This document shows positions 1 through 29,124 of a DNA stretch of 64,000 nt, piece after piece. Made by a program: the position numbers and the translations under genes. Under the pieces are notes generated by a model. That model saw only the letters and a program-made list of their open reading frames with translations. It did not search any database and was not told the DNA's origin. The stretch is from Isoetes taiwanensis (lineage: Eukaryota; Streptophyta; Lycopodiopsida; Isoetales; Isoetaceae): positions 870,001-934,000 of the forward strand of contig JAJEKV010000034.1 of assembly GCA_021234155.1 (NCBI GenBank), given 5' to 3'. Each line of letters starts with the position of its first letter. Within the stretch, counting starts at the first letter, position 1.

Positions 1-2241
1 CATGCGATATGAAGGGATTTCCAATTTATTATTCCAAATCGATAATTGGGCGCCAAGCTTGTCACAGGCATGATGTTATGCACCGGAATTTGAAGCCTGA
101 GAATTTTCTCTTGGCCAGCAGGAAAGAAGAGTCTATATTTTTTTAGCCTGGGGACACCTAGGCAACCAACCACGGCCCCAGTTTCAGGCGCACAGCTCCA
201 AAACATGTATGAAGGATCCGCAAATGCTTGATCCAGGGCCGATTTAGTTTGGTATGCAGGGCCAGAGTTTAAACATGCCCGCTTTCTGGTGTTTGGTGCT
301 TCCTGGACCGCTTTCAGGCTCCTTTTCATATTTGTCTATATGATTTGAGATCAAACATGTATATTCTTTGAAGATTGCAATATATTGATTTTGAACTTTT
401 AAATATTTGCAATACACTTAGTCTCTGCTAGAAATAATTGCAAAGATTTCTAGCTATTAATAAATATACATTTTGTTGGTACATTGTGTCCTTGCCACTT
501 ATAAAAACTATCCCCTTGGAGTTACCACAGCACCATGTAAATAATTATATATTTTGTAAGTACGTTGTGTCCTTGCCACTTTTAAAAACTATCCTATTGA
601 AGTCGACATGGCACCGATAACTAGACATTCTCTTTGTAGGCCGATGTTTTATTTGCGTACTGCGAAATGATCCACTATAGGTTTATATGTGCAGCTTGAA
701 TCGTCGCAATAAACTAAAATGAGTGAGATACAAGCATCCGAAGATGGATTCTACTTGGTAAATCTGCTATTAACCATTAAAATAACTAAGTCGATTATTT
801 CTTAGAGCAACATGAAAAGAAAAAAAGAATTGGCCCGAGCTTAAGGTAAAACACATTCATTTGATAAGGCATAGCTAATAGAGTTATAATAAGAAATTGC
901 TACTCATTGGCCAAATGCCAATCCTATACTCTCCGCCGGATGGTAATTACGTACTATGCTATATGCAGGAAGTTGTACTATGAGGCTTATGTGCACTTGA
1001 AAATTGGAAGTTACTAAATGCACTGGTGAACCATGCACAGGTTTATCACAGAGGAAGAATTGTGAAGCTTTGGTACAAACCAACCCTTTGGATTAAGTTA
1101 CCTCTTTGAGTACTGCTCATAAGCTACTGTCAAGAGCTAGAGAGGCGGAGCTTTATTTGTCATGCCCACACAATATATTACAGTATATAAGGAAGGATTT
1201 TCTTTCACATGGTGCAAAATGATGTCACTGTTGATCTTGTGATATTGATCTGCATTGCATTTGTTACTCAAATAATTGGTATGACATTCCTTCCTTATTA
1301 TTCTTGACATTACTAAAAACTAAGAAGGATAGACAAACTGTTTTTCTTTGGAATTCTTTTAACACAAGGACCTTTATAAAGGTGACTATGGATGTTTTGC
1401 TCTTAATTCACTTTGAGGTTACCACATTGTTGAACATTGAATTATTAGTTTTCATCGACGCGCATCAAGGTCTTTTCAGGGGTCAAACCCGACCGCTTTT
1501 AAAGGGGTGCTCCTTGACCAAACAACATGGGTTAAGATGATTTAGGCACACTGGTACTCAACATAATCTACGACATGGCATAACTTAAACACAACACCAG
1601 CATTCAAAGATGAGACGAGCCTGAGGAATCGAACCCCGGTTCTAATCCACTGCTCAGGACTCACCTACTCATGTTATGATTCTTCACATTTATCGAAGCT
1701 TAAATACCGAGGCTCTCTGCAAGCAAGAACCCACATGATTTCGGTCAATTTTTGCTGATGGCTTCGCTAATTTGGTCAAGTCAGACCTTGTATTAATGTC
1801 AATTCATCAATATGACCATGTTAGGGCATTGATTTGGCTCCGGAAAAAAGGAAACCTACAATTTATGATGTTTATTTCCCTAATAATGCAAGCTCGCCAT
1901 CTCTCGCTCGGACCCATCTAATATATCCGCAAAGCTGATTCTAGAATCTAACGCCTTGCTTGAGTGATTAATTTGCAACCGTCGCGGCTTTTGATGCACC
2001 CAAATTTTTCACCGATTTTAAGCTCTGGACTTGTTAAACTAATTGAACCCCACATGATTCTAGAGCATTTTATACTGATGGCTTACTGAACCCGTCCAAT
2101 CAGGGCTTTTATTAGCCCCAAGTCGTCAATTCCTGCCTTTATCAAGCATGCATGACAGTATTTGCACAACCAAAAAACAACAAAACACAAGCACAGCACC
2201 GAACCGCGCACTTAATCGGAACATGCCACGAACATGTCACC
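1..2241. other. No gene seen; internal DNA of the duplicated unit
   Basis: AT-rich sequence with only short unsupported ORFs. It matches 16651-18880. The one recognisable signal is a pol III B-box-like motif (see 1625-1635). Small differences from copy 2 are frequent and mostly sit on CG, CAG or CTG. Confidence 0.6.
1625..1635 (-). promoter_or_regulatory. Pol III B-box-like motif (possible SINE or tRNA relic)
   Basis: The minus strand reads GGTTCGATTCC, an exact match to the tRNA/SINE B-box consensus. It is conserved in copy 2 at 18287-18297. I could not place a convincing A-box at the usual 30-40 bp upstream, and no cloverleaf folds around it, so this may be a SINE head, a tRNA relic or chance. 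Confidence 0.25.
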
Positions 2242-2495
2242 CAGCTCAAACATGCCAAGGTGGCTCAAACATGCCACGCGGGCTCCAACATGCCATCTAG
2301 GCTCCAACATGTCACGGTGGCTCAAACATGCCACCTAAGCACCAACATGCCACCTAGGCTCAAACATGCCAAGGTGGCTCAAACATGCCACGCAGGCTCC
2401 GATATGCCACCTAGGCTCCGACATGCCAACGTGGCTCAAACATGCAATGTGGACTCCAACATGCCAATGTGGCTTAGGCATGCCACCTAGGCACC
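2242..2495 (-). repeat. Short inverted 19-bp satellite array (left arm, copy 1)
   Basis: About 13 monomers of the 5.2-8.4 kb satellite in reverse orientation ('GGCTCCAACATGCCACCTA'). They form the left end of the foldback. Copy 2 counterpart at about 18890-19140. Confidence 0.9.
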
Positions 2496-3794
2496 CCAAG
2501 TGGTGACATGGCATGCCAAGAAAGCAAGGCCAAGTTTTGACTAGGCCAAAAATGAAAAAAAATGTCCATCTCTGGCCTTTTCATTGGGTGATGTTGGCAA
2601 ATTTTGGATGACATGGCTAGATGGTGGTGACATGGACATGATGACTAGGACTTTATGCAAGAAATATGATGACCTTTGAAATTTTTGATAGAGGAGTTTG
2701 GCAAGGAATTAAATAGAGGGATCTGAAGAACTTAAAGCCGACACTTCCCCAACTCGAACCCGGGCCAGGGACTTTGGCGCAGTTTTCTCACCCGAGGGGA
2801 GAGGCCGGACCCGGAGATGGACCTCGAAAAGGTTGTCGAGGCAGCCTTTCCCTATCGATCCTCCGGGAGGGCAAATGTCAATTCCCCCCTCAGGAGCTCA
2901 ATTTTCCTATCCGGATCGTTGAATCCGTCATTCAAGTAACCCGCTTCGGTAGGCTCAAAAAATCCAAGATCCGTCCCACGAGAACTTATCACACCACGAA
3001 GCGTTATGCGGGTTGACCGCATAGAAAACCAAGTGTTTTGTGTTCGGGCAGTATAAAGGCTCTGGAATGGAGATTCGACTTCGCCATGTCGGCCGGAATG
3101 GCGAAATTACCCCAGGGACCAAGTTACATGTCATTTTGGCAACGAAAGAAACACGAACCCTCTACATAGTGGTATTCCGCAGCCACCTCTTAGGCCAATT
3201 GACTACGAACGTGTTGGAAGTGAGCTACCTTGGTGCTTCTTGAAGAAGGGGTGGTCTTACGCCTCATCCATAAACTTGCTCCCGGGGGTAAAAGTCGACA
3301 TTTTGAGTCCATTAGCGGAGTTAGTTCATACCCCGAGTGGGAAGTTGCCCGTCCTGCGGGGCGGGATTCTTTGGGAGAGGACCTTTGGGGCGAACTGCCT
3401 CCGAAAAGTTTTAAAGGTCCATCTTATGGCCTCAACACCCTCCCTCTACGTGATGACATTGTGCAAGATTTTGGTCGAATCTGACTAGGATATGGCCTCC
3501 GAAACGTAAACCACATTGCTGCTAGGTTATTGAAGGGTTTACGTTATGGGGTCGGTTTAATCGGGTTGCACTTGGGTCATGGTTGAGAAGCCGCAATTGA
3601 GAACATGAAGCAATAGGAACTCATGGAATGGGGTTTGGAGTTATCCTCCTCCCAATCAATTAGAAGTCAAGAGCAAGTAGCAAAATTGTTTGGGATCATT
3701 CGGGATGGCCAATAGATCCAAACTCTGTTATTTTCAGGTTGCTATGGTTCAAGATGTGTTTAGCAAAGAAAGACATCTAGCTATCCAAGAAAAT
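2496..3794. repeat. Left non-satellite arm of the foldback (copy 1)
   Basis: The reverse complement of 3881-5207 with small indels. Shared landmarks are the 'CCCAAGTGGTGACATGGCATG' edge, the 'GGATGGCCAATAGATCCAAAC' block and the 'CAACGAAAGAAACACGAACC' block. Short ORFs appear on both strands but differ between arms by frameshifts, so no conserved protein is supported. Confidence 0.85.
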
Positions 3795-3880
3795 CCACCG
3801 CGCTTTGGCCTCCCAAATATAAACCCCGTGGTGTTGCTAGGTTATTGTAGGGTTTACGCTTGGGAGGCTAAAATGTGATC

Positions 3881-5207
3881 ATTTTCTCGATAGCTAGATG
3901 CACCTTTGCTAAACACACATTGAGCCATAGCAATCGAAATAACAGAAGTTTGGATCTATTGGCCATCCCTAATGATCCCAAACAATTTTGCTAATTTAAA
4001 GGTGCTCTTTGACTTCTAATTGCCACACCGGGAGGAAGTTAAATCCAAATCCCATTCCCTCGCCTCCTATTGCTTCACATTTTCAACTCGCAGCTTCTTG
4101 ACCATGTCCCAAGTGCAACCGACTAAAAACTCGACCTCCATAATGCAAACCTTTCAATAACCTAGCAACACACGTGGTTTACATTTTGAGGATGTATCCT
4201 AGTCGATTCACCGTGATCTTGCAAAATGTCATCATGTAGAGGGAGGGTGTTGATGCCGTAAGACGGACCCCTTAAAACCTTCCCGAACCAGCCGGGCCCC
4301 TAAGGTCCTTCTCCTCGGCGGCCCCGCCACGGACGGCAACTCTCCCACTCCAAAACCGTGGAACCGACCGCCAATGGACTCAAAATGTCGACTTTACCCC
4401 GAGGACCAAGTTTCAGGGGCGTAACACCACCCCTTCTCCAAGAAGCACCAAAGTAGCTCATGTCCAACACGTCAGAGTCAATTGGCCTAATAGGTGGCTG
4501 CGGAATACCGCTATGTAGAGGGTTCGTGTTTCTTTCGTTGCCAAAAATGACCATGTAACTTGGTCCCTGGGGTAATTTCGCCATTCCGGATGACATGGCG
4601 AAGTCGAACCTCCATTCCAGAGCCTTTGTACCGCCTCGAACGACAAAACACTTGGTTTCTTTCGCATTGCGGTCAACTCGCTGAACGCCTTCGTGGTTTG
4701 ATAAGTTCTCCCGATGGATCTTGATTCTTTGAGCCCTCGCCGAGGTGTTACTTGAATGACGGATTCAACTGCCCGGATAGGAAAAATTGAGCTCCCTGAG
4801 GGGGGGGGGGAGGGGATTGGCATTTGCCCTTCTAGAGGAGCGCTGATAGGAAAGGCTGCCTCGACAACCTTTCTGAGGTCCATCTCCAGGGGTCTGGCCT
4901 CTCCCCTCTGGTGAGAAAGCTGCGCAAAGTCCTGGCCTGGTTCGAGTTGGGAAAGTATGTCAGCGCATTAAGTTCTTCAGATCCCTCTATTATATTCCTT
5001 GCCAAACTCCTCTACCAAAAATTTCAAAGGTTATCATATTTTTTGCATAAAGTCCTAGTCATCATGTCCATGTCACCATCATCTAGCCATGTCACCTAAA
5101 ATTTGCCAACATCACCCAATGAAAAGACCAAAGATTGACATCTTTTCATTTTTGGCCTAGTCAAAACTTGACCTTGCTTACTTGGCATGCCATGTCACCA
5201 CTTGGGG
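3881..5207. repeat. Right non-satellite arm of the foldback (copy 1)
   Basis: Inverted partner of 2496-3794. A G-run (4800-4811) interrupts it; copy 2 has a longer G-run near 21444-21457. The loop between arms (3795-3880) itself contains the imperfect inverted motif 'GCCTCCCA...TGGGAGGC'. Confidence 0.85.
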
Positions 5208-8200
5208 TGCCTAGGTGGCATGCTTGAGCCTAAGTGGCATGCCTGACCCACCTTGGCATGTTGGAGCCTAGATGGCATGTTGGAGCCTGGAGCCACCTTG
5301 GCATATTTGAGCCTAGGTGGCATGTTTGAGCCACCTTGGCATGTTGGAGCCCACATGGCATTATATGTTTGAGTCTAGGTGGCATGTTGGAGCCTAGGTG
5401 GCATGTTTGAGCCACCTTGGCATGTTTGAGCCTAGGTGGCATGCAGGAGCCACCTTGGCATGTTGGAGCCTAAGTGAGCCTGCATGGCATGTTTGAGCCT
5501 AGGTGGCATGTTTGAGCAACCTAGGAATGTTGGAGCCCACGTGGCATATTTGAGCCACCTTGGCAAGTTGGAGCATAGGTGGCATGTTGGAGCCACCTTG
5601 GCATTTTTGAGCCTAGGTGGCATGTTTGAGCCACCTTGGCATGTTGGAGCCCACGTGGCATTATGGAGTCCACGTGGCATGTTTGAGCCTAGGTGGCATG
5701 TTGGAGCCTAGGTGGCATGTTTGAGCCCACCTTGGCATGTTTTAGCCACCTGGCATGTTTACGCCTAGGTGGGATGTTGGAGCCTTCGTGGCATGCTTGA
5801 GCCACCTTGGCATGTTGGAGCCCACGTGGCATATTTGAGCCACCTTGGCAAGTTGGAGCATAGGTGGCATGTTAGAGCCCGCGTGGCATGTTTCAAAGAT
5901 GTTGGAGCCACCTTGGCATTTTGAGCCTAGGTGGCATGTTTGAGCCACCTTGGCATGTTGGAGCCCACGTGGCATTATGGAGTCCATGTGGCATGTTTGA
6001 GCCTAGGTGGCATGTTGGAGCCTAGGTGGCATGTTTGAGCCCACCTTGGCATGTTTGAGCCACCTCGCATGTTTGATCCTAGGTGGCATGTTGGAGCCTA
6101 GGTGGCATGTGGGAGCCACCTTGGCATGTTTGAGCCTAGGTGGCATGTTTGAGCCACCTTGGCATGTTGGAGCCCACAAGGCATGTTGGAGCCTATGTGG
6201 CATGTTGGAGCCCACGTGGCATGTTTGAGCCACCTTGACATGTTTGAGCACGTTGGAGCCTAGGTGGCATGTTTGAGCCACCTTGGCATGTTGGAGCCTA
6301 GGTGGCATGTTGGAGACCACGTGGCATGTTTGCGCCCACCTTGGCATGTTTGAGCCACCTGGCATGTTTGAGCCTAGGTGGCATGTTGGAGCCTAGGTGG
6401 CCTAGGTGGCATGTTGGAGCCACCTTGGTATGTTTGAGCCTAGGTGTCATGTTTGAGCCACCTAGGAATGTTGGAGCCTAGGTGGCATGTTGGAGCCCAC
6501 GTGGCATATTTGAGCCACCTTGGCAAGTTGGAGCATAGGTGGCATGTTGGAGCCCGCGTGGCATGTTTGAGCATGTTGGAGCCTAGGTGGCATGTTTGAG
6601 CCATTTTGTCATGTTGGAGCCTAGGTGGCATGTTTGAGCCACCTTGGCATGTTTGAGCCTAGGTGGCATGTTGGAGCCACCTTGGCATGTGGGAGCCACC
6701 TTGGCATGTTTGAGCCTAGGTGGCATGTTTGAGCCACCTTGGCATGTTGGAGCCCACATGGCATGTTGGAGCCTATGTGGCATGTTGGAGCCCACGTGGC
6801 ATGTTTGAGCCACCTTGGCATGTTTGAGCACGTTGGAGCCTAGGTGGCATGTTTGAGCCACCTTGGCATGTTGGAGCCTAGGTGGCATGTTGGAGACCAC
6901 GTGGCATGTTTGAGCCACCTTGGCATGTTTGAGCCTAGGTGGCATATTGGAGCCTGTGTGGCATGCTTGAGCCACCTTGGCATGTTGGAGCATAGGTGGC
7001 ATGTTGGAGCTCAAGGTGGCATGTTTGAGCACGTTGGAGCCCTAGGTGGCATGTTTGAGCCATTTTGTCATGTTGGAGCCTAGGTGGAGCCCACGTGGCA
7101 TGTTTGAGCCACCTTGGCATGTTGGAGCCTAGGTGGCATGTTGAAGCCCATGTGGCATGTTGAAGCCCATGTGGCATGTTTGAGCCAACTTGTCATGTTG
7201 GAGCCTAGGTGGCATGTTTGAGCCACCTTTGCATGTTGGAGCCTAGGTGGCATGTTGGAGCCCACTTGGCATGTTTGAGCCACCTTGGCATGTTTGAGCC
7301 TAGGTGGCATGTTAGAGCCATGGTGGCATGTTGGAGTCTAGGTGGCATGTTTGAGCCAACTTGGCATATTTAAGCCTAGGTGGCATGTTGTGAGCCACCT
7401 TGACATGTTGGAGCTTAGGTGGCATGGTGGAGCCCACGTGGCATGTTTGAGCTACCTTGGCATGTTGGAGCCTAGGTGGCATATTGGAGCCTAGGTGGCA
7501 TGTTTGAGCCCACCTTGGCATGTTTGAGCCACCGGCATGTTTGAGCCTCCGGTGGCATGTTGGAGCCTAGATGGCATGTTTGAGCCACCTTGGCATGTTA
7601 GAGCCTAGGTGGCATGTTGGAGCCACCTTGGCATGTTGGAGCCTAAGTGAGCCTATGTGGCATGTTTGAGCCACCTAGGAATGTTGGAGCCTAGGTGGCA
7701 TGTTGGAGCCCACGCATATTTGAGCCACCTTGGCAAGTTGGAGCATAGGTGGCATGTTGGAGCCTAGGTGGCATGTTTGAGCCATTTTGTCATGTTGGAG
7801 CCTAGGTGGCATGTTGGAGCCACCTTGGCATGTTTGAGCCTAGGTGGCATGTTAGAGCCACCTTGGCATGTTGGAGCCCACGGCATGTTTGAGCCACCTT
7901 GGCATGTTGGAGCCTAGGTGCCATGTTGAAGCCCATGTGGCATGTTTGAGCCAATTGTCATGTTGGAGCCTAGGTGGCATGTTTGAGCCACCTTGGCATG
8001 TTGGAACCTAGGTGCCATGTTGAAGCCCATGTGGCATGTTTGAGCCACTTGTCATGTTGGAGCCTAGGTGGCATGTTTGAGCCACCTTGGCATGTTGGAG
8101 CCCACGTGGCATGTTTGAGCCTAGGTGGCATGTTAGAGCCACGGTGGCATGTTGGAGCCTAGGTGGCATGTTTGAGCCAACTTGGCATATTTAAGCCTAG

Positions 8201-8392
8201 GTGACATGTTGTGAGCCACCTTGGCATGTTGGAGCCTAGGTGGCATGGTGGAGCCCACATGGCATGTTTGTGCCACATTGGCATATTGGAGCCTGCATGG
8301 CATGTTAGAGCCCGCGTGGCATGTTGGAGCCACCTTGGCATGTTGGAGCCACCTTTGTGGCATGTTTGAGCCACCTTGGCATGTTTGAGCTG
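5208..8392 (+). repeat. 19-bp tandem satellite array (right arm, copy 1)
   Basis: The monomer is GGCATGTTKGAGCCNANNT, 19 bp. Main variants end in CACCTT, CTAGGT or CCACGT and are intermixed, giving irregular higher-order patterns with some truncated or duplicated units. Long ORFs on both strands (up to ~150 codons, HATWAPTCHLGSNMPRWLK-like peptides) arise because 19 is not a multiple of 3 and stops are rare in the monomer; they are not genes. Confidence 0.95.
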
Positions 8393-8449
8393 ATTGGGAC
8401 CTGAGATCATGTGCATATGCTCAAAAAATGGATTTGAGGCATAAACAAG

Positions 8450-8454
<5 letters not shown>

Positions 8455-8484
<30 letters not shown>
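8455..8484. repeat. (CT)15 microsatellite
   Basis: Uninterrupted CT dinucleotide run just outside the foldback. The copy 2 equivalent (25735-25758) is three units shorter. Confidence 0.97.
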
Positions 8485-8486
<2 letters not shown>

Positions 8487-8689
8487 AAAAATTCAATTTT
8501 GGGGATCTTCATAATGCCTTTGCATTCTAGTTTTCTATAAGCATGAGGGGTAAAGGGACAATAGATGAGATATTGCATTTTTGCAGCGGCCCTGCACCCC
8601 CTCAAGGAATACAAATAAAATTCTTGATGGTTTTGTTATGCAAAAATAGGTGTTAAGTAATTGAAGTAGTTGAAGTAACTTGTCTTACA

Positions 8690-9190
8690 TGGAATACTAG
8701 TATAAGGACATGTGATCGTGCACGTGCATCACATGTAGCAAATCAAGTACTCTGTCCTACCACTATAAAGACCCGTGATATGGAAGGATAGGACATGTAG
8801 AGAATCAAGTATTCTTTCCTACTTCTATAAAGACATGTGACATAATTCATGTATTCTTTCCTACAATGCCTTAGCAAATAAAGTACTCATCCTACTACTA
8901 TAAAGACATGTGACATGGAAGCATAGGACATGTAGAGAATCAAGTATTCTTTCCTACTTCTATAAAGACATGTGACAATAGAAGTATTACACATGTCGTA
9001 ATTCATGTATTCTTTCCTACAATGCCTTAGCAAATAAAGTACTCTGTCCTACTACTATAAAGACATGTGAATGGAAGTATAGGACATGTAGAGAATCAAA
9101 TATTCTTTCCTACATCTATAAAGACATGTGACAATAGAATTATTAGACATGTAGAAATTCAAGTATTCTTTCCTACAGTGGATTGTATTA
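8690..9190. repeat. Subterminal-type tandem repeats (copy 1)
   Basis: Nested repeats built from 'TACTATAAAGACATGTGACA', 'AATCAAGTATTCTTTCCTAC' and 'TGCCTTAGCAAATAAAGTAC', recurring with a longer period of roughly 165 bp. They lie next to the 31-bp inverted terminal repeat at 9350, the position expected for transposon subterminal repeats. Each contains a TATAAAG core. Copy 2 at about 25970-26460. Confidence 0.8.
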
Positions 9191-9349
9191 TAAAATGACA
9201 TGTCACAATAGAAGAAACTACAAAACAACAGTGGATATTTTAGTCCACTGAAAAAAGAACACCATTATCGAACAAAACCATACCTCCACAAATCCACATG
9301 TAGGATTCTTTGAAAACAGGACATGTAGACCTACCAAAACTGATGTTTT

Positions 9350-9380
9350 CAACAGTGGACCAAAAACTGGGGTGAGTGTG
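9350..9380. repeat. 31-bp terminal inverted repeat (right end, copy 1)
   Basis: The reverse complement of these 31 bases matches 13921-13951 at 29 of 31 positions, around the core CCCCAGTTTTTGGTCCAC. It abuts coding-like sequence of the split gene (9381 onward). The copy 2 partner is 26621-26651. The ends begin CACACT on both sides. No clean target duplication was found (AAG versus TAG directly outside). Confidence 0.75.
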
Positions 9381-10060
9381 TAGGATTAATAATAGCAGAA
9401 GGATGGACAGTGGAAACAGGCTCCACAGACAGGGCTCTAGTCTGGGTAGAGTCCTCTGCTAAAGAAACAGGCTTTACATTCTTTTTCTTCGCCTGAGCTC
9501 TTAACCAGTTTGTGTCCATTACCGAGGGCATTTTGTCATCACGTTTAGCTTTCAATGCAATGTTGAGAAACCAGACAATATATCCCTATTTCCAGTTATT
9601 CCGGACAGAGACAGAGATTCATACGACTGCAACTCCCAGCCATATCCTTTTGCACTAGTGGGAACATTCTTTCATGTGGCTGTCATGAGTGAGGGATCAT
9701 AGCTCATCCATTTCAGGACGTACTCAAGGAACTGCAAATTTTGTGTATCCTCCACGCTGCATATAATGGCGTCTTGGACATTGTTTTTTGTTCCTTCCCA
9801 CATAGCAATGACAATTCCTACCTGTTGTATGTCCTCAGCCTTTTTGCCAGTCTTGAGGAACAAGCAAAGGTCTTTTCTGCGGTCACCTTTTGTCTGTGGA
9901 ATTGCTTGTGCAATTTCAATGCACCACTTCCTTTCATTGGAAGGTGTGATGATCTTCGTAGGCTCAACGTCAGGACCACGAAACAAATCCAGAGCTGCAA
10001 GGAAAAGAAGTGTAGTATTAAACCTAACCGCACTAAACTTATTCTCCGAGAACTCAACTT
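9381..10060 (-). pseudogene. Unrecognised gene family, 5'/central part (locus A, copy 1)
   Basis: Product unknown. Reading the minus strand from ~10060: a block 'ALDLFRGPDVEPTKIITPSN' and 'KWCIEIAQAIP', then 'AEDIQQVGIVIAMWEGTKNN' and 'FLEYVLKWMSYDPSLMTA', a stop, then 'VPTSAKGYGWELQSYESLSL' and 'MPSVMDTNWLRAQAKKKNV'. The last two blocks align with the locus at 56.2-57.85 kb ('VPTSAKGYGWNLSTYDSLSL', 'LPSRMDTNWLRAVVKKKVV'), so they are real family blocks. The frame ends at the terminal inverted repeat at 9380, and the matching 3' part is found at 13606-13920. Stops and frame changes between blocks make this copy non-coding as it stands, unless some are introns or sequence errors. Confidence 0.65.
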
Positions 10061-10246
10061 GATCGCGACCGCGATCTTGTCGAGTGCTCAGTAGGATCGC
10101 GGCCGCGATCCTGTTGAGTGCTCCACCAGATCGCGGGCGCGATCCTGCCGAGCACTCGACAAGATCGTGGTCGCGATCATGCTGAGCACTCAAGAAGATC
10201 GCAGCCGCGATCCTGCTGAGCACTCAACAGGATCGCGGCCGCGATC
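10061..10246. repeat. Six-unit 34-bp array of GATCGCGG-type palindromes (copy 1)
   Basis: Six near-identical 16-bp palindromes (GATCGCGGCCGCGATC and single-base variants) start at 10061, 10095, 10129, 10163, 10197 and 10231, an exact 34-bp period. The 18-bp spacers contain GAGTGCTC in the left half and its reverse complement GAGCACTC in the right half, so the array is also inverted-symmetric as a whole. A diverged extra unit lies near 10327. The array overlaps the open 5' end of the minus-strand reading frame of locus A. Copy 2 (27334-27519) is identical. Confidence 0.95.
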
Positions 10247-10249
10247 CTG

Positions 10250-10910
10250 TTGAGTCTCATACTTCTGTATGACTACTTGAAAACTAGAAGATGAACCGTA
10301 AAGTAAAACATGCATTCTCGAAATAAATCGTGGCCGCGATCTTCTTGAGCTGAGGGGGCAAGAACTTACCTTCTCTGATATGGGCTTTAGGTGCCATGGA
10401 TCGCGGGCGCCGGAAGATAACGGAAGGTGGCTTTCCTAGGTATGCGATCGAAGGCGCTAGGGTGAGCTGAAGGCGCAGAAATCGTCGATGGCGCTAGTCT
10501 CCTTTTAAAAAAAAAATCGTGAATTCTAAGAATAAGTAGTAATCTGGCGGCCGTCGAAATTTACTATCACACGTGCGAGTTCTGACGCGCCATAAATGCC
10601 TGCCATTATTGCAGCCGGCATTAATAATTACACCGCCCATTACTGCAGCCGCCCTTAATTATGGAGACGCAACAAATTTGTTATAATTGAGGCATGTTTC
10701 AGACAGGAGGTACTTTTTGACGTAGACCTCCGGATTCAAAATCTGTACGTTGAGGGAGAGATATAACCACGCCCCCATACCAATACCCCGCGTAATAAAT
10801 GCCCCACGGAATAAAGCAGTACAAGGTTCAGGAGGACGAGTTACGGACGGAAAAAGACATCTGCGTTTGAAATTAGCGATTGAATTTCGCGCTCGTTCTT
10901 GTTGGCGGGG
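10250..10910. other. No gene identified (copy 1)
   Basis: GC-richer than the surroundings with many CG dinucleotides, and identical to 27523-28183 in copy 2. A short plus-strand ORF (10750-11013) has no recognisable features. The sequence could be promoter or 5' region of the minus-strand family gene, but no specific element is visible. Confidence 0.4.
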
Positions 10911-10914
10911 ATTC

Positions 10915-11050
10915 CATTTTGAAATCGAGCAAGCTGTTCTTGAAGGCGCTCGATCTCCTCGTCTGAAGCCCTATCCGTTCTTGAAGGCTTTCGATCCGTT
11001 CTTGAAGGCTTAGTTACGTTCTTGAAGGCGCCGAGTATCTTAAGCTGCCA
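10915..11050 (-). pseudogene. Coiled-coil heptad-repeat coding fragment (copy 1)
   Basis: The minus strand encodes iterations of the heptad E-R-L-Q-E-Q-I/L from 21-bp repeats (GTTCTTGAAGGCGCTCGATC on the plus strand). Copy 1 has lost several CG/CTG bases (for example 'gaaggctttcgatcc'), which breaks the frame. Copy 2 (28200-28330) keeps three consecutive heptads plus one separated heptad and has a single in-frame TAG. The parent protein is not recognised. Confidence 0.55.
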
Positions 11051-11164
11051 GGGTTCAAAATCCTAAGGCCTTACCTGCATATGCAGCCAGACATTATTCA
11101 ATTCAGGAGGTGATTTTTATTTTGTTGTTTATGTATGGGATATAATAGTGTTTTCACAATCACC

Positions 11165-11262
11165 CATGTATTTTACTGTAATAGCACCATCTCTCCGACT
11201 GTAATGCATTTTACTGTAATAGCACCATCTCTCCGACCATTTTACTGTAATGCATTTCTCCG
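11165..11262. repeat. Short tandem repeat 'tttactgtaat...tctccgac'
   Basis: Two and a half copies of a ~37-52 bp unit (TTTTACTGTAATAGCACCATCTCTCCGAC with variable TGTAATGCA insert). Identical in copy 2 (about 28446-28540). Confidence 0.8.
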
Positions 11263-11583
11263 ACTAATTGAGTAATGAAGGGCTCGATTTCAGTGTAAGA
11301 ATGGCACATTCGATGCCTTTAAAATGAGGCTAGAAGATGATCCTAATAATGGGCATAAATACGCCTTCCCGAGAGCACATCGCATACCCAAAGATGTTTA
11401 ATGGTGATCAATCTAACATAACTATGGATCCGCTAACAAAGTTGACAAATCGGGACGGATCTCCATTCTAATTAACATGAAAAGCGTAGATTCGTTGTGG
11501 AAATAACAGATGCAATTAATATTTATGTTCATTTAATTTGCGAGTTACTCAAATATCTCAGTTGCACCAACTCGGATCTCTGC

Positions 11584-11817
11584 CTAAAAGAATCGCGACT
11601 GCGTTCCTGCTGAGATATCGACGTATAACGCGACGCGAGGTATCGTCGACCACAACACGAAGTGAGCTTCCCGCAAGCACTTTCGCGGACCATCTGCTTT
11701 GGACCGGAGCCATGGATCAAGATTAACACCATTTCTATAGCATTCACACAGATCGTTGTAGCTCAGGTAGCACTTGAAGGATCGGATGTGCTCCGGACGA
11801 GGAGGCAAGGAAGCCAT
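11584..11817 (-). pseudogene. Small ORF MASLPPRPEHIR... (copy 1, frame shifted)
   Basis: The same N-terminus as the 95-codon ORF of copy 2 (28803-29090), but the copy 1 frame shifts after ~43 codons because of small differences at CG, CAG and CTG sites. See the copy 2 entry. Either this copy is decayed or the differences are sequence errors. Confidence 0.4.
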
Positions 11818-11819
11818 GC

Positions 11820-13605
11820 AAGATGAATGAATGGAGCTGTTTTTATAGTGAACTAAAATTATTGAGGTGAATTATTGGTGTAGATTGTAGCGCCATTATT
11901 GGGCTTGTATAAGTATCACGTACATGTACAAGTATAACACATAATTTATATGTATATGTGTATGTTAATGACCTCATGTATGTTGGGCTCGAGAATTAGG
12001 TGAAAATATTCGTGCTTGAGCAAATTAGGTGTGCTTAAAATTCTCAAAATTGCGTTATTTTCTCCAATTAATGAAATCATGCTTATCACATAAAGGGAAG
12101 CAACTAGCTTAGTGCAGCTTACTAGCTTGTCCATGCGACATTAGGAAAAATGCCTCCGTTTGCCTATTTTCTTGTCATTTTCTAATTTCCGCAGACGTAT
12201 ATAACTGAAGTTATTAGAATCACAATGTGACATGCAGTCCATGTGGATAGAGATCAGAAATTACCGACAGTTTGCAACAATCAAGGCATAGTTTCCGATT
12301 CCAAGCACAAATTCCTTGACATACACGGCTCACGTTCTCTGTTCTCTGTAAGTATTGCATCCATATTAACGTCAACAAAGCATGAAGTTTAAGATAGAAG
12401 AAACTCTAATGGCTAACCTAAGATAGAAGAAACTCTAACAAAGCATAAAGTTCAAGATAGAAGATTGCCATACCTTAACGGCGGGAGGGATCTGTAGTCG
12501 GATCGGAGGGCTAGCACGAGCGATCTGGAGGGAGCACTGGCGTTTCCGTTATTGGCCTCCGTTGCCTATTTTCCTGCCATTTTCTAATTTCTGCAGCCGT
12601 GGATATGGAAGATTCGAGATCGAACGGAGAAGCCTAAGTCCACATCTTTTTTTGCTGATCTGGAAATTACACGTGGATAGGCTAGAATTTGAGGAAAGGT
12701 TGTAGGCACGGTAGGGCTGGTGTGCTAATAAAAATTCCGAGCTCATGTACTGCAGCTTGATCATGCATCTATTGGATTGGTCTTAGGGTGGCTCCTCCAC
12801 CTCCTGCGACATGCCTAATTAGCACCAGCTTTGGCGACCATCGTTTCCTGAGAGGTTTTTGTTAGAGGATATTGGGTCCTGGTATCGCATGACCTATTTA
12901 AATGTATTATTTGTTTGGTTTTATTAAGAATTCGTTGTTGGCTTTGTGGCTAACTTTCTTGCTGGTTCGATTCGCTCCAATGGCCAAATATTTTTTCCTT
13001 TTTTTCTTGGGTTTCTTTCGTGTTTATATGGCATAAACTTGTTGGGATAATATATGGCCCGACAAAAATTCCAATTTCTCTCCAAAAATTCTATCGTTTG
13101 TACTGCTTTTAAGTTGTTCTCTGGAAAAACTTGTTTATATTGTATAAACTTGTTGGGAAGGTATATGGTTCGATTCCCTCCAATGGTCGAACACTTTTTC
13201 CCATTTTCTCTCGAGTTTCTTTCATGTTTATATTGCATAAACTTGTTGGGAAAGTATATGGCCCGACAAAAATTCCCATTTCTCTCATGTTTGTATTGTA
13301 TTAAGTTGTTTTCTAGGAAATTTCCATGTTTTCTTGTGGTGATGTTGTATTAAATTGTTGCTGAGAAAAGTTTATGGCCTGCTTTTGTGTAAAAAAGCTT
13401 TGGGGTCTTATGTCTTGTCTTCTTGGGTCTTGAGGGCATAACCTAGATTCTTCATTTTATTTTTTGAATAGTCGGCCCCTCCTCCTTGCTGGGTCTGTAT
13501 GGGTCGTATGTTGTTTGTCCCTTCAAGTCGTGCTTTTGGATTTTGGTCTTCCTCTTAGCTTGTGTGTTTCTTGCTTGGAGCCAGGATGGTCTAAAGGTTG
13601 ATGGC
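11820..13605. other. No gene seen (copy 1); minor repeats at 12950-13280
   Basis: AT-rich and nearly identical to copy 2 (29105-30877). Between ~12950 and 13280 the motif 'ATAAACTTGTTGGGA' with its neighbourhood ('atggcccgacaaaaattcc') recurs three times at 90-115 bp spacing. ORFs here are short and featureless. Confidence 0.5.
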
Positions 13606-13920
13606 ATGTTCATAAACCAGTTCACACCAAGCGGATAAAACCGCTTAAACTGTTCAAGCTTCTGTGCAGTTTGTTAAGCCAACTTACGTTCTTCCTCGGG
13701 ATTGAATTTAAGCTCCGTCGGCAGTTCAGAAATAACGGGCCATGCTAAGCTCTTCGAGGATAAATACCTGTCACGGAAGGGGGCGTACGAGATGACGAAG
13801 GCTCTCCACTGTCTGAAGTAGTCAGTTTGCGGAGGTTGATCATGAACTTTGAAATCTTGTTGGGGACTGTAGTATCTTTCGTTACAAGAGGGGGAGCACA
13901 AATAGCCAAAGGCTGAGAAG
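13606..13920 (-). pseudogene. Unrecognised gene family, 3' part (locus A, second unit)
   Basis: Minus-strand blocks: 'ICAPPLVTKDTTVPNKISKF', 'ESLSSS..P'-like serine-rich linker, 'LAWPVISELPTELKFNPEEE', 'KLA', stop, 'QTAQKLEQFKRFYPLGVNWF'. These align with 57060-57330 ('LTWPSASRMPNELKFDPDG', 'KLAEQTASKLEGFKRFYPMG', 'VNWF'). The 5' part of the same gene lies across the 12.7-kb TIR-bounded insertion, at 26652-27333. The left edge (13605/13606) is the tandem duplication junction, so the gene is cut there. In-frame stops and frame changes are present. Confidence 0.65.
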
Positions 13921-13951
13921 CACACTGACCCCAGTTTTTGGTCCACAGTTG
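13921..13951. repeat. 31-bp terminal inverted repeat (left end)
   Basis: Begins CACACTGACCCCAG and matches the reverse complement of 9350-9380 (29/31); 26621-26651 is the more diverged copy 2 right end. It is followed inward by TTGTTTT-rich sequence. Confidence 0.75.
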
Positions 13952-14720
13952 TTTTTTAGTTGTACGGAAGTGTTGTTTTATGCCAAAAACAACACCAAAA
14001 TGGCCCCAAAAGTCCACGTGGCCTGTTTATCCGGATTTGCACAAAGAGACAGTGGTTTTTTGGCAGAAATTTCCCCACGGTGGTTTTTTTGCAGAAAAAA
14101 ACCACGCGTAGAAAAAATTGATATAGTTTTTGTGATTTTTTGTCAACGTATATTTTTTTCCTTCTTGACTGTTGTTTTTGAAGTAGGCACGCGTTGTTTG
14201 TCTTGTAAATAGCATATGTAGGTTCGAATATTAGTACATGTGGAAAACTGAAAAAGACAGTTGTTTTTCTCTTTTCCATTTGTGTGTTTTTTTTTCTCTA
14301 TTTGTAGTTTTTTTAAGTTGACATTGTTTTTCCAAAAAAATATACATAATTTTCAAGAAATCCACATGTTTTCTATAAAAAACAATTTGTTTTCAAATGT
14401 TGTTTTACTCAATGTGACATGTAGAAATTAGAAAGTAGACGCATCATTCTTGTTGTTTTCAAATGTTGTTTTTGCGAAAGAGGGAAAAAAAAAAAAAAAA
14501 AAAAAGACCACACGTGGTCTTTCATTTCTAGCGTTGTTTTCGGATCAAAATTTTAAAAACCACATAATTAAAAAAAAAATGGACATGTAGATAAAGCAAT
14601 GCTACACGCGTAGAAACAATGCTACAAGTAAAACAATGCGTTGTTTACGCGCGGAGAAACAATGTCACAAGTAAAACAATACATTGTTTTTACTATCTAA
14701 TAACCAATCAAACATTGACA
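13952..14720. repeat. AT-rich left subterminal region with TTGTTTT motifs
   Basis: Many recurrences of 'TTGTTTT' and, at 14590-14690, of 'gaaacaatgctacaagtaaaacaatg'. A 21-base A-run occurs near 14485. No ORF with recognisable features. Position and composition fit a transposon subterminal region. Confidence 0.5.
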
Positions 14721-15290
14721 CGTGGCACACTCAAATAAAAAAATAATATAAATCACAATTTAAAGCCAATATAATCATATTTTATTTTTTCAATATGAAT
14801 TGTTTTTGGGAACCAAGTATTGTCTTTTGACTATTATTTCTAAGTGCTTGATTCCACAAATATTCTTTATTTTATGCCACACATCTAAGGTTGGCAAATT
14901 TTTATAAAACTAAAACTATAGAAAACAAACAATTAAGATTACTTTCATATTTACAATACAAGAACTTCATATATTTAATATTTAACAATTGAAACCAGAG
15001 ATTACATTTACATTCCATTTTACACTTCAGTACCGCAGATCAGCTTCTGCTGTGTTAAAAGCCAAGTTCAGTAAAGATCCTGGCCTCAGTAAAGAATAGA
15101 ATAGAATAGAATAGAATAGTTTTTTTAAATCAATATCGGACTCTAGCACAGAGCCAACAAAAAAGCATCTTGTAACAAAGAAGAAAAGGACGGAAGAAGG
15201 CCTCTGCTCCAACAATCAGCCGATCAAACAAAGGAGGAAAAGACTTGTGGCAGAAACTTTCTGGCAAGACTCAACAAGAATGGCAGGAGT
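14721..15290. other. No gene; (GAATA)n microsatellite at 15094-15119
   Basis: AT-rich spacer. Five GAATA units occur at 15094-15119 upstream of the multicopper-oxidase exon. Possibly intron sequence carried along with the exon. Confidence 0.5.
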
Positions 15291-15293
15291 TTA

Positions 15294-15581
15294 ATGCAGG
15301 AGACGTGGGAAAGATTGTCAGTAGTGGATTATCAAGATCCAAAGGGCTGCTACACTGCGAATTTTACAGAGCCATATAATGATCAGTCTGGCTGGAAAGA
15401 CACAGTTACAGTTTGTCCAGACTATGTGACAAGATTCCTTACATCTTTTACTCCACAGGATGAAAAGGCATTTCCCTTCAATGTCACCCAAGCTCCGGGC
15501 TATGTCTGGCATTGCCATATCTTAGACCTTGAAGACAACGAGATGATGCATCCTCTCCTTGTTAAGCCGTCTATTCATTGA
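15294..15581 (+). pseudogene. Captured multicopper oxidase (LPR/CotA-like) C-terminal exon
   Basis: Encodes the last ~90 residues of a multicopper oxidase of the LPR1/spore-coat CotA type, enzymes that oxidise metal or phenolic substrates using four copper ions. Visible are 'GWKDTVTV', 'FPFNVTQAPGYVWHCHILD' and the terminal 'NEMMHPL'. The family motif is HCHxxxHxxxM. Here the HCH pair (type-3 ligands and type-1 Cys) and the axial Met are present, but the type-1 copper histidine is Leu ('HCHILDLEDNEM'). The upstream cupredoxin domains are absent from the window, and 'tttaatgcag' just upstream could be a splice acceptor. The lost copper ligand and missing domains say this is a dead fragment, probably carried by the surrounding TIR element. 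The identification is firm; the capture is inference. Confidence 0.85.
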
Positions 15582-15589
15582 CTTGAATT

Positions 15590-16650
15590 TTATAGCCGAC
15601 ATTTGTCTGTATACACATAAAGAAAATATTTAACCTGTTCTTTTAAAAAAAAAAAGAGCAGAATAGAACAAAATAGTATGAACCTCTAGGCCAACGATGG
15701 TGGCTTTGCCAAAAAAAGATGTATGAAGGAAAAAAACTCTCCATTGTACCTTTGCTACCAGTCCCACAAACCAAAGATGGGAAACACACCAAGCCTCTGC
15801 ACAAAAAACAAGAAGAATAAAGTAAAAGCAAAGAAACAAAGGCAATAAAATGAATGAGGTCTGTGATTCTCGCCAAGAACCTCTTACCGCTACCGTAAAC
15901 TCCTAGCCGATGGTTTCAAATAAGAGCCCTTCTTCGTGTGGATCTTTTCTCGTCATTCTTAGCACGCTTTGTTTTTCTTCAGATTGGGCCTCGACCGCTC
16001 CTTAGTTTAGCTCAAGTTTGCTATGCAATAACACCTTATTCTGCAAAAGGAGAAGAATAGCATGTCCGCTTTTAGCGTAAAACAAACCGCCTCAAGGCTA
16101 CTGAGCTGCCCATTTCAAACAGAGGCGATGCAAAGAAAACCAACTCCACAAACGTAATCCGGGCCTAATGCGCTCTTCGCAGACCCTCCGTTGGATTATT
16201 CCCCATCGGATTGCACAATGGGATTGCATAACCCCCAGCCCATTCTTTAAGTAAGCGGGATGAAGCATAATGGCGATACGTAAATCACATGGGCTTAAAT
16301 TAGAAGAGCGGAAAAGATCCGAAAGGGGCAAGTCATCACAAAGAAGAGGCGCTCCCATCACCGAGGAGCGAGCAAGATAAGCGCCATTGCTACCTATCGC
16401 CATAGCGGGCGCTGGAAACAAAACACAAACGGGCGCCTAAGCAAGCACAACCGCCCATTAAGCCCAACCAATAGGATGAGAGGGTCTGATTGAAATCTAG
16501 GCCGCTTATCTCGCACAACTCGGCCGCTGGATGGGATGCGTGTTTATCAAAATGTGTTCTATTTTTTATAATTTTCAAAGTGCCCCTCTATTTTTGCATT
16601 TGTTAAAATGCCTCTTTATACCATCACGAAGCTGCTATTTTCTTCGCTCC
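15590..16650. other. No gene seen
   Basis: Contains an A-run (~15645) and a GC-richer block at 15890-16520 with overlapping short minus-strand ORFs that show no recognisable motif. Confidence 0.45.
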
Positions 16651-18880
16651 CATGCGATATGAAGGGATTTCCAATTTATTATTCCAAATCGATAATTGGG
16701 CCAAGCTTGTCACTGTGCATGATGTTATGCACCGAATTTGAAGCCCGAGAATTTTCTCTTGGCCAGCAGGAAAGAAGAGTCTATATTTTTTTAGCCTGGG
16801 GACACCTAGGCAACCAACCACGGCCCCAGTTTCAGGCGCACAGCTCCAAAACATGTATGAAGGATCCGCAAATGCTTGATCCAGGGCCGATTTAGTTTGG
16901 TATGCAGGGCCAGAGTTTAAACATGCCCGCTCTCTGGTGTTTGGTGCTTCCTGGACCGCTTTCAGGCTCCTTTTCATATTTGTCTATATGATTTGAGATC
17001 AAACATGTATATTCTTTGAAGATTGCAATATATTGATTTTGAACTTTTAAATATTTGCAATACACTTAGTCTCTGCTAGAAATAATTGCAAAGATTCCTA
17101 GCTATTAATAAATATACATTTTGTTGGTACATTGTGTCCTTTGCCACTTATAAAAACTATCCCCTTGGAGTTACCACAAAGACCATGTAAATAATTATAT
17201 ATTTTGTAAGTACGTTGTGTCCTTGCCACTTTTAAAAACTATCCTATTGAAGTCAAAGATGGCACCGATAACTAGACATTCTCTTTGTAGGCCGATGTTT
17301 TATTTGGTACCGCAGAAATGATCCACTATAGGTTTATATGTGCAGCTTGAATCGCACGCAGAAAACTAAAATGAGTGAGATACAAGCATCCAAAGGATGG
17401 ATTCTACTTGGTAAATGCTATTAACCGTTAAAATAACTAAGTCGATTATTTCTTAGAGCAACATGAAAAGAAAAAAAGCAATTGGCCCGAGCTTGAGCAG
17501 AAACACATTCATTTGATAAGGCATAGCTAATAGAGTTATAATAAGAAATTGCTACTCTGCATAATAAATGCCAATCCTATACTCTCCGCCGATGGTAATT
17601 CTTGTACTATGCTATATGCGTGAAGTTGTACTATGAGGCTTATGTGCACTTGAAAATTGAAGTTACTAAATGCACCGGGTGAACCATGCACAAAGTTTAT
17701 CACAGAGGAAGAATTGTGAAGCTTTGGTACAAACCAACCCTTTGGATTAAGTTACCTCTTTGAGTAATCGCCATAAGCTACCACAAGAGCTAGAGAGGCG
17801 GAGCTTTATTTGTCATGCCCACACAATATATATTACAAAGATATAAGGAAGGATTTTCTTTCACATGGTGCAAAATGATGTCACCAAGTGATCTTGTGAT
17901 ATTGATCTCGCATTGCATTTGTTACTCAAATAATTGGTATGACATTCCTTCCTTATTATTCTTGACATTACTAAAAACTAAGAAGGATAGACAAACTGCT
18001 TTTTTCTTTGGAATTCTTTTTAACACAAGGACCTTTATAAAGGTGACTATGGATGTTTTGCTCTTAATTCACTTTGAGGTTACCACATTGTTGAACATTG
18101 AATTATTAGTTTTCATCAAACGATCAAGGTCTTTTCTCGGGTCAAACCGACCCGCTTTTAAAGGGGTGCTCCTTGACCAAACAACATGGGTTAAGACAAA
18201 GATTTAGGCACACTGGTACTCAACATAATCTACGACATGGCATAACTTAAACACAACACCAGCATTCAAAGATGAGACGAGCCTGAGGAATCGAACCCCG
18301 GTTCTAATCCACTGCTCAGGACTCACCTACTCATGTTATGATTCTTCACATTTATCGGCTTAAATACCGAGGCTCTCTCAAGCAAGAACCCACATGATTT
18401 CGGGCCAATTTTTGCTGATGGCTTCGCTAATTTGGTCAAGTCGACCTTGTATTAATGTCAATTCATCAATATGACCATGTTAGGGCATTGATTTGGCTCC
18501 GTAAAAAGGAAACCTACAATTTATGATGTTTATTTCCCTAATAATGCAAGCTCGCCATCTCTCGCTCGCACCCATCTAATATATCCGCAAAGCTGATTCT
18601 AGAATCTAACGCCTTGCTTGAGTGATTAATTTGCAAACCGTGCCTTTGATGCACCCAAATTTTTCACCGATTTTAAGCTCGACTTGTTAAACTAATTGAA
18701 CCCCACATGATTCTAGAGCATTTTATACCGATGGCTTATCAACCCGGGCCCAATCGTGGCTTTTATTAGCCCCAAGTCGTCAATTCCTCGCCTTTATCAA
18801 GCATGCATGACAAGATTTGCAAACCAAAACAACAAAACACAAGCACAAAGACCGAACCGCTGCACTTAATCTAACATGCC
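16651..18880. other. No gene seen; copy 2 equivalent of 1-2241
   Basis: Direct counterpart of the window start. The 130-codon plus-strand ORF at 17815-18207 is open only because of small differences from copy 1 and has no domain features. The B-box-like motif is kept at 18287-18297. Confidence 0.55.
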
Positions 18881-18889
18881 ACCTAACAT

Positions 18890-24800: not shown

Positions 24801-25673
24801 ATGTTGGAGGCTAGGTGGCATGTTTGAGCCACCTGGCATGTTTGAGCCTAGGTGGCATGTTGGAGCCTAGGTGGCATGTTTGAGCCACCTTGGCACGTTT
24901 GAGCCTAGGTGGCATGTTGGAGCCACCTTGGCATGTTGGAGCCTAAGTGAGCTTGCATGGCATGTTTGAGCCTATGTGGCATGTTTGAGCCACCTAGGAA
25001 TGTTGGAGCCTAGGTGGCATGTTTGAGCCACCTTGGCAAGTTGGAGCATAGGTGGCATGTTGGAGCCCCCGTGGCATGTTTGAGCACGTTAAAGCCTAGG
25101 TGGCATGTTTGAGCCATTTTGCATGTTGGAGCCTAAGTGGCATGTTGGAGCCACCTTGGCATGTTTGAGCCTAGGTGGCATGTTAGAGCCACCTTGGCAT
25201 GTTGGAGCCCACGCAGGCATGTTTGAGCCACCTTGGCATGTTGGAGCCTAGGTGGCATGTTGAAGCCCATGTGGCATGTTTGAGCCACCTTGTCATGTTG
25301 GAGCCTAGGTGGCATGTTTGAGCCACCTTGGCATGTTGGAGCCTAGGTGGCATGTTGGAGCCCACGGGCATGTTTGAGCCACTTTGGCATGCTTGAGCCT
25401 AGGTGGCATGTTAGAGCTACGGCAGCATCTTTGGAGCCTAGGTGGCATGTTTGAGCCAACTTGGCATATTTAAGCCTAGGTGACATGTTGTGAGCCACCT
25501 TGGCATGTTGGAGCCTAGGTGGCATGGTGGAGCCCACATGGCATGTTTGTGCCACATTGGCATATTGGAGCCCCAGATGGCATGTTAGAGCCCAAGGTGG
25601 CATGTTGGAGCCACCTTGGCATGTTGGAGCCACCTTTGTGGCATGTTTGAGCCACCTTGGCATGTTTGAGCTG
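18890..25673. mobile_element. Foldback-like element, copy 2
   Basis: Same architecture as 2242-8392: short inverted satellite (about 18890-19140), left arm (about 19145-20440), loop, right arm (about 20535-21857), long satellite (21858-25673). The right array is ~630 bp longer than in copy 1. A G-run (~21444-21457) lies in the right arm. Confidence 0.6.
21858..25673 (+). repeat. 19-bp tandem satellite array (copy 2)
   Basis: The same monomers as 5208-8392 in largely the same order, with about 33 extra monomer equivalents net. Where the copies differ within a monomer, the change is often at the 'CCACGTGG' CG/CHG site (for example 'CCACGCAGG' or 'CCGCAAGGG'). Confidence 0.95.
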
Positions 25674-25734
25674 ATTGGGACCTGAGATCATGTGCATATG
25701 CTCAAAAATGGATTTGAGGCATAAACAAGCAAAA

Positions 25735-25758
25735 CTCTCTCTCTCTCTCTCTCTCTCT
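25735..25758. repeat. (CT)12 microsatellite
   Basis: Copy 2 equivalent of 8455-8484, three units shorter. Confidence 0.97.
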
Positions 25759-25969
25759 ACAAAAATTCAATTTTGGGGATCTTCATAATGCCTTTGCATT
25801 CTAGTTTTCTATAAGCATGAGGGGTAAAGGGACAATAGATGAGATATTGCATTTTTGCAAAATGGCCCCACACCCCCTCAAGGAATACAAATAAAATTTT
25901 GATGGTTTTGTTATGCAAAAATAGGTGTTAAGTAATTGAAGTAGTTGAAGTAACTTGTCTTACATGGAA

Positions 25970-26460
25970 TACTAGTATAAGGACATGTGATCGCACGCGT
26001 GCATCACATGTAGCAAATCAAGTACTCATCCTACCACTATAAAGACCCGTGATATGGAAGGATAGGACATGTAGAGAATCAAGTATTCTTTCCTACTTCT
26101 ATAAAGACATGTGACATAATTCATGTATTCTTTCCTACAATGCCTTAGCAAATAAAGTACTCATCCCTACTACTATAAAGACATGTGACATGGAAGCATA
26201 GGACATGTAGAGAATCAAGTATTCTTTCCTACTTCTATAAAGACATGTGACAATAGAAGTATTACACATGTCGTAATTCATGTATTCTTTCCTACAATGC
26301 CTTAGCAAATAAAGTACTCATCCCTACTACTATAAAGACATGTGAATGGAAGTATAGGACATGTAGAGAATCAAATATTCTTTCCTACATCTATAAAGAC
26401 ATGTGACAATAGAATTATTAGACATGTAGAAATTCAAGTATTCTTTCCTACAAAGGATTG
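25970..26460. repeat. Subterminal-type tandem repeats (copy 2)
   Basis: Counterpart of 8690-9190, with the TATAAAGACATGTGACA and TATTCTTTCCTAC motifs. It lies just inside the right terminal inverted repeat at 26621-26651. Confidence 0.8.
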
Positions 26461-26651
26461 TATTATAAAATGACATGTCACAATAGAAGAAACTACAAAA
26501 CAACAAAGGATATTTTAGTCCACCAAAAAAACACCATTATCGAACAAAACCATACCTCCACAAATCCACATGTAGGATTCTTTGAAAACAGACATGTAGA
26601 CCTACCAAAACCGATGTTTTCAACAAAGGGACCAAAAACCGGGTGAGTGTG

Positions 26652-29090: not shown

Positions 29091-29111
29091 GCAAGATGAA
29101 TGAATGGAGCT

Positions 29112-29121
29112 GTTTTTATAG
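29112..29121 (-). promoter_or_regulatory. TATA-box-like element
   Basis: Minus-strand CTATAAAAAC upstream of the 28803-29090 ORF, conserved in copy 1 (~11839-11848). It is very close to the ATG, so it may serve a transcript with a downstream start. Confidence 0.35.
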
Positions 29122-29124
29122 TGA

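Follow-up and report, generated by a model that had tools for sequence, protein, structure and literature searches.

Satellite arrays residing inside CACTA elements have already been published. CACTA (En/Spm) transposons are characterized by a 3-bp target-site duplication (TSD), subterminal repeats and a short terminal inverted repeat (TIR) that starts with CAC (PMC8978399); the CACTA elements annotated in another study were given 5-nt TSDs (PMC8903248). Jozin, a CACTA-like element of Chenopodium quinoa, is 16.5 kb long and harbours a 5,550-bp array of a 171-bp monomer near its 3′ end (PMC8978399). For ATENSPM / ENSAT1 in Arabidopsis, a table row records an origin in the 5′ untranslated region and an autonomous element (PMC9659126). 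Tetris of Drosophila virilis displays a foldback-like structure in which tandem repeats (TIR-220) are part of the TIRs, with TSDs of 8–10 bp (PMC4079207). The locus considered here lies in a stretch of 64,000 nucleotides from the lycophyte Isoetes taiwanensis (contig JAJEKV010000034.1, positions 870,001 to 934,000), referred to below as the window, in which a long palindrome is placed between two arrays of a 19-bp satellite. This palindrome-array block is very probably the internal cargo of a many-copy family of TIR DNA transposons, whose copies seem to be non-autonomous. A literature search by title and abstract opening, with most subscription journals outside its coverage, returned no description of this family.

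The block occurs twice in the window (Table 1). In the first copy, Tandem Repeats Finder (TRF) delimits a left array at 2244–2487 with a 19-bp period and 12.8 units, a period-38/57 row starting at 2231 and array-like motifs appearing from ~2220; the right array, of the same period, comprises 171.1 units. The corresponding arrays of the second copy contain 12.6 and 204.1 units, and in both copies they point toward each other. The palindrome between them totals ~2.7 kb: self alignment pairs 2244–5493 with 5469–2220 across 3,364 aligned columns, of which 81.8% are identical (E = 0), a match far beyond chance. Folding of 3780–3905 as DNA leaves a loop of ~23 nt (z = −3.5; none of 200 shuffles equally good), and a hairpin query against plasmids gave no match. 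An earlier interpretation made from the letters alone, the sequence-only reading, had recognized an inverted repeat with facing 19-bp arrays at 2242–8392, and self alignment and TRF bear this out. Its ~13 left units stand, whereas the ~165 units assigned to the right array fall short of the measured value, and the hairpin loop exists but is smaller than the ~85 bp proposed, since the inner part of that interval also pairs.

The same structure, placed by that reading at 18890–25673, is indeed present at 18900–25671, but not as a separate insertion. Window positions −2856..8390 (negative positions lie upstream of the window) align to 13762..25047, and 5288..13605 to 22554..30877, both at 92%, with an offset of 16618 on the left of the array and 17266 on its right. 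As the flanking DNA aligns too, in a unit of ~16.6–17.3 kb, the second copy is not an independent insertion: the window holds one insertion (−2697..9380) plus its tandem segmental duplicate (13921..26651). The right arrays of this pair differ by ~33 units (171 vs 204), a difference that has arisen since the duplication and makes array turnover directly measurable; the description of the satellite as expandable is thereby upheld. The duplicated flank also accommodates a partly palindromic 34-bp tandem repeat, GAGCACTCAACAAGATCGCGGCCGCGATCCTGCT, in 6.1 copies at 10048–10254 and 27321–27527.

The ends of the element lie outside the arrays. Conservation among loci extends beyond the right array and stops sharply at window 9380, where element 1 terminates in ..GGGGTGAGTGTG; its left end, at −2697, carries CACACTGACCCC, seen in the upstream locus L065, and the TSD TAG flanks both ends. 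The distance from array to end is ~1.0 kb on the right and ~5 kb on the left in the window copies, the latter being 3.5 kb in L009. The TIRs are 31 bp long and imperfect (CACACTGACCCC.. and CACACTCACCCC..), with 27 of 31 positions in agreement in L009. This locus also provides an empty site: the paralogues L049 and L050 are uninterrupted where L048+L009 has the insertion, and both flanks align. The L009 element spans 8,947 bp, with its arrays internal at 3468–4003 and 5827–7562; its left end is CACACTGACCCC, as established by comparison of 13 two-ended copies, its TSD is AGG, and its right flank encodes a portion of a reverse transcriptase that was identified on visual inspection as gypsy-type.

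The triplet before CACAC is identical to the triplet after GTGTG in all 12 distinct two-ended insertions (AGG, GTA, GTA, GCA, AAA, TCA, AAT, TAA, CCC, ATC, AAA and TAG, the last being window copy 1), which were chosen, ahead of any comparison of flanks, for having two available ends, other listed pairs being left out. The 13th copy, the tandem duplicate element 2, shows AAG vs TAG, with two of three bases in agreement. Comparison of the 13 copies led to the replacement of a 5-bp TSD in L009 (AGGCA) by the 3-bp TSD and the CACAC end. All 18 further loci fetched for their right ends finish in GGGGTGAGTGTG followed by differing flanks, and so do 12 of 12 more from the first 17 rows of the pattern list. 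Fixed right ends alongside seemingly variable left ends had at first suggested a LINE-like (long interspersed nuclear element) or one-ended element, an idea that was dropped once the left end and the empty site had been found.

Facing arrays around a hairpin are a tempting likeness of a foldback (FB) transposon until the true ends are located. FB elements end in long inverted repeats with tandem modules, and the sequence-only reading had placed the window structure in that design, with the arrays as terminal inverted repeats. The inverted disposition of the window arrays around a palindrome agrees with such a design, but the conserved sequence reaches its sharp end 1 kb past the right array, the empty site and TSDs of L009 put the ends outside the arrays, and the terminal repeats are 31-bp TIRs flanked by 3-bp TSDs. 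In addition, left arrays in direct orientation are found in L004, L005, L007, L008 and L046, and in 5 of 12 sampled copies the 2.7 kb next to the right end are free of arrays. Array edges were searched for TSDs in 10 loci, in six of which the right end was not located; of the remaining four, the first window copy (W1), L005 and L009 gave no TSD and L013 gave a 7-mer match 35 bases away. This outcome fits arrays that are not element ends. An FB-type element is therefore extremely improbable. Tetris shares with this family an apparently non-autonomous nature and internal tandem repeats, but the repeats here are internal rather than parts of the TIRs and the TSD is 3 bp. The picture is that of a changeable satellite carried and spread by a transposon, rather than of a new kind of foldback element.

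The family is dispersed across the genome. Allowing at most one mismatch, the right-end motif has 638 matches and the left-end motif 1,427, with none for the reversed-pattern control of either. Comparison of the first 100 listed left ends with the first 100 listed right ends gives 50 left ends that have a right end in the correct order and strand no more than 40 kb away; the wrong-strand and reversed-order controls give 2 each. The median length of these pairs is 11.2 kb; 36 are shorter than 13 kb, most measure ~8–13 kb and the longest reaches 33.7 kb. At first look, 4,740 candidates were returned by an array-arm query and 5,724 by an arm query; 40 candidates were scored per query, and 13 loci of 10 kb were fetched from the arm-query matches. 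The genome-wide search with the arm sequence that the sequence-only reading had proposed yielded many further loci rather than a single genomic position; the ends, target duplications, empty site and many copies support its suggestion of mobility. Ten of 15 loci, among them both window copies (W1 and W2), show the passage from the right array into GAGCTGATTGGG..; in L010 and L011 the GAGCTGATTGGG stretch is on the other side because the elements lie in opposite orientation, and in L003, L006 and L012 the junction is not present. Similarity to the window ends at 9380 in L001 (C1102), L002 (C952) and L003, which, judged from their right ends, seem to have inserted separately and to belong to the subfamily of the window copies. 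The (CT)n tract of the right terminal region, sometimes accompanied by (CA)n, is far longer in L004, L005, L008, L009, L013 and L033 than in the window copies, and at C323:390745-391305 two outward-facing left ends are only ~0.5 kb apart.

The arrays vary in presence, length and orientation. An array lies in the neighbouring 2.7 kb at seven of the 12 right ends sampled, in reverse orientation at two of them (L034 and L038), and core-like sequence is found near 11 of the 12. Right-array size in the measured loci varies between ~77 and 236 units. Relative to the right array, the left one is opposite in W1, W2, L001, L002, L003, L009, L011, L013 and L047 (with some units also reversed in L047 by simple motif count), runs in the same direction in L004, L005, L007, L008 and L046 and is of mixed orientation in L006 and L012, whereas no left array was found in the complete L010 element. 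The facing arrangement reported for the window copies is consequently true of them but is not a constant of the family, being confined to part of the related loci. The left arrays of L006 and L012 consist of three blocks, forward-reverse-forward, of nearly alike sizes (~35, 29 and 28–30 units). The likeness to Jozin resides in a satellite array inside a transposon near its 3′ end; the monomer is 19 bp here and 171 bp there, Jozin has a transposase, and no palindrome is mentioned in the section that describes it. With ATENSPM / ENSAT1 the shared feature, according to the table row, is a satellite tied to an En/Spm-like element, and the differences are the 5′ untranslated region origin and the autonomous element recorded there.

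The abundance of the repeat might point to an independent chromosomal satellite that served as an insertion target or was captured: the exact 18-mer GAGCCTAGGTGGCATGTT has 31,490 matches in the genome (control 0). The window copies contain 35 and 46 of them and 15 other loci 18–55, some of these loci ending inside an array. These per-locus counts suggest ~800 array-bearing elements genome-wide, a rough figure since the loci were chosen as good matches, and one that falls within the range of the end-motif counts. Moreover, the 18-mer was not found in the window outside both elements, and the transition from array to right terminal region falls at the GAGCTGATTGGG junction in 10 of the 15 loci compared. 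On the loci counted, an independent satellite is very unlikely, although free-standing arrays may exist elsewhere in the genome.

The history of the palindrome can be approached by comparing the outermost 1,250 bp of each arm in the 11 loci with a full core. Mean identity is 91.9% between left arms (55 pairs) and 91.5% between right arms (55), as against 89.2% between the left and right arms of the same copy (11) and 89.1% between those of different copies (110). In a tree, the left arms of nine loci group together with support 1.0, and the L012 left arm forms a long branch among right-type arms. This pattern fits, but not cleanly, an ancestral palindrome that would have been shared and inherited through transposition. 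Another possibility is that the core was once a separate foldback or long-TIR element, nested in the ancestor of the family and carried since. Relatives of the arm terminus (arm positions 1–203) lie outside the left array, within ~0.6 kb, in L006, L009, L012, L046 and L047, and L006, L012 and other loci contain successive core-like pieces of ~75% identity, which speaks for such an origin; but neither a TSD nor an empty site of the core by itself came to light, no systematic search being made, and the core lies between arrays in all 11 full-core loci. A nested origin of the core is on balance rather unlikely, though it deserves more weight than the other alternatives.

With regard to classification, the family is CACTA-like, as judged from its ends. 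It resembles CACTA in the 3-bp TSD, the short TIR starting with CAC and subterminal regions rich in a short motif, where CACTA elements have direct and inverted repeats of 10–20 bp, and diverges from it in its CACAC termini, in the lack of a transposase in the frames scanned, and in the large internal palindrome and 19-bp arrays. In L009 the two ends are rich in the 6-bp motif ACRYGT, with 10 occurrences on the left vs 0.85 expected and 14 on the right vs 1.13, the maximum of 500 resamplings being 5 and 6 for this one copy; ACATGT occurs 14 times in its right terminal region vs 0.98 expected. As ACRYGT is palindromic or nearly so, its orientation is unreadable, and the tandem 62/63-bp units are found on the right only. 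Other superfamilies fit less well. PIF/Harbinger elements generate 3-bp TSDs of the TWA type, and of the 12 TSDs only TAA conforms. Mutator-like elements (MULEs), with TSDs of 8–11 bp and often long TIRs, do not match the 3-bp TSD and the 31-bp TIR; Helitrons, which lack TSDs and have a CTRR 3′ end, are ruled out by the TSDs and the GTGTG right end.

A frame inside element 2 (15147–15578, +) resembles the C-terminal part of multicopper oxidase (PF07731, E 1.5e-5, 25.2 bits, cut-off 20.4) and is likely a captured gene piece of Pack type, a trait that recalls Pack-CACTA, in which a gene piece is carried inside (PMC8903248). Besides this piece, no Pfam family was detected in the frames of the core, element 2, L009, L010, L011 and L071. 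Three members of 16.9–21 kb were read over their left 8.5–9 kb: L069 has a frame of LINE type (RVT_1, Exo_endo_phos, zf-RVT), L070 a long terminal repeat retrotransposon insert (RVT_1, RNase H, integrase), and the four frames of L071 gave no Pfam match. The transposase family PF02992 (Transposase_21 / tnp2) is abundant across this genome, but at the loci examined it was not met inside an element with these TIRs, its match on C520 lying outside the element.

Several observations weigh against reading the block as inherited cargo of TIR transposons mobilised by a CACTA-type transposase. The TIRs begin with CACAC, not CACTA, and a Pfam scan of 24 reading frames from the elements, a part of all frames, detected no transposase domain (6, 10 and 8 from three scans, excluding a PPR control and one repeat entry; duplicates possible); because of these two points the label CACTA-like is used and the family is not filed as CACTA. 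The absence of a transposase from the frames scanned does accord with the non-autonomous nature proposed in the sequence-only reading, whose structural observation is partly confirmed overall and whose interpretation is partly supported. Two PF02992 loci of 14 kb each lack a TIR of this type, with 0 and 1 weak pairs, not above shuffles. Left-end matches outnumber right-end matches more than twofold, and 50 of the 100 left ends listed have no partner among the right ends listed; the excess suggests a sister subfamily with a different right end. As for the palindrome, the differences in mean arm identity are small, the right arms of L004, L005, L007 and L008 are nearest the L006 left arm, and the two L006 arms are nearest each other, being 99.2% identical, as compared with 84–92% in the other 10 loci. 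The L006 palindrome (C948:1370879-1380878) may have undergone recent homogenisation or re-formation.

A complete copy, of which element 2 is an example, reads from the left as a 3-bp duplication, a 31-bp TIR (CACACTGACCCC..), an ACRYGT-rich region and filler of up to ~4 kb with a possible gene piece; then an optional left 19-bp array, the palindromic core and an optional right 19-bp array; and lastly a terminal region of ~1 kb with 62/63-bp repeats, the second 31-bp TIR and the 3-bp duplication. The elements would be mobilised in trans by a transposase, most likely a CACTA-type one, that recognises the TIRs and perhaps also the subterminal ACATGT motifs, with arrays and palindrome as passengers. 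Slippage or unequal exchange may alter array length, and most palindromes would come with the element by inheritance and then decay. It is also conceivable, though unlikely, that the block is an active satellite nursery, in which hairpin extrusion of the core re-forms or homogenises the arms, as putatively in L006, and switches and grows the arrays, the ACATG-containing unit being an amplified subterminal transposase-binding motif; the arrays could then titrate or recruit transposase. The satellite may also have had the hairpin-seeded origin that the sequence-only reading offered as an alternative. The family shows how a satellite with a short monomer can be dispersed: TIR transposons, some 800 copies by the rough estimate above, carry 19-bp arrays beside a long palindrome in a lycophyte genome.

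Table 1. Coordinates of the two elements and their parts (window positions)
Feature	Position	Strand	Details
Element 1, in-window part	1..9380	+	Full extent −2697..9380 = C1039:867303-879380, ~12.1 kb
Left 19-bp array, element 1	2220..2487	-	~13 units, opposite to right array; TRF and motif scans
Left palindrome arm, element 1	2490..3826	+	Self alignment, arm comparison, loop position
Palindrome loop, element 1	3827..3849	.	~23 nt; DNA fold
Right palindrome arm, element 1	3850..5206	-	Self alignment
Right 19-bp array, element 1	5209..8390	+	171 units; TRF
Right terminal region, element 1	8387..9380	+	(CT)n, 62/63-bp tandem repeats, ACATGT motifs; common to other loci up to sharp end
Right TIR, element 1	9350..9380	-	Minus strand = CACACTCACCCCAGTTTTTGGTCCACTGTTG
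3-bp TSD TAG, right side of element 1	9381..9383	.	
Second unit of tandem segmental duplication	13762..30877	+	First unit ~−2856 to ~13605–13761
Left target-site triplet AAG, element 2	13918..13920	.	Right triplet TAG at 26652–26654; 2/3 bases agree
Element 2, complete, duplicate of element 1	13921..26651	+	12.7 kb; both ends and flanks
Left TIR, element 2	13921..13951	+	CACACTGACCCCAGTTTTTGGTCCACAGTTG
Left 19-bp array, element 2	18900..19138	-	12.6 units; TRF
Palindrome core, element 2	19143..21854	.	blastn of core
Right 19-bp array, element 2	21857..25671	+	204 units; TRF
Right terminal region and right TIR, element 2	25668..26651	+	

Beyond the duplicated segment, the window harbours long PPR reading frames at 48708–50705 and 54617–55147, one PPR frame in the window being 665 aa long; I. 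taiwanensis is described as containing many PPR genes (PMC8566536). The frame at 60749–62995 encodes a reverse transcriptase domain (RVT_1, E 7.8e-28).

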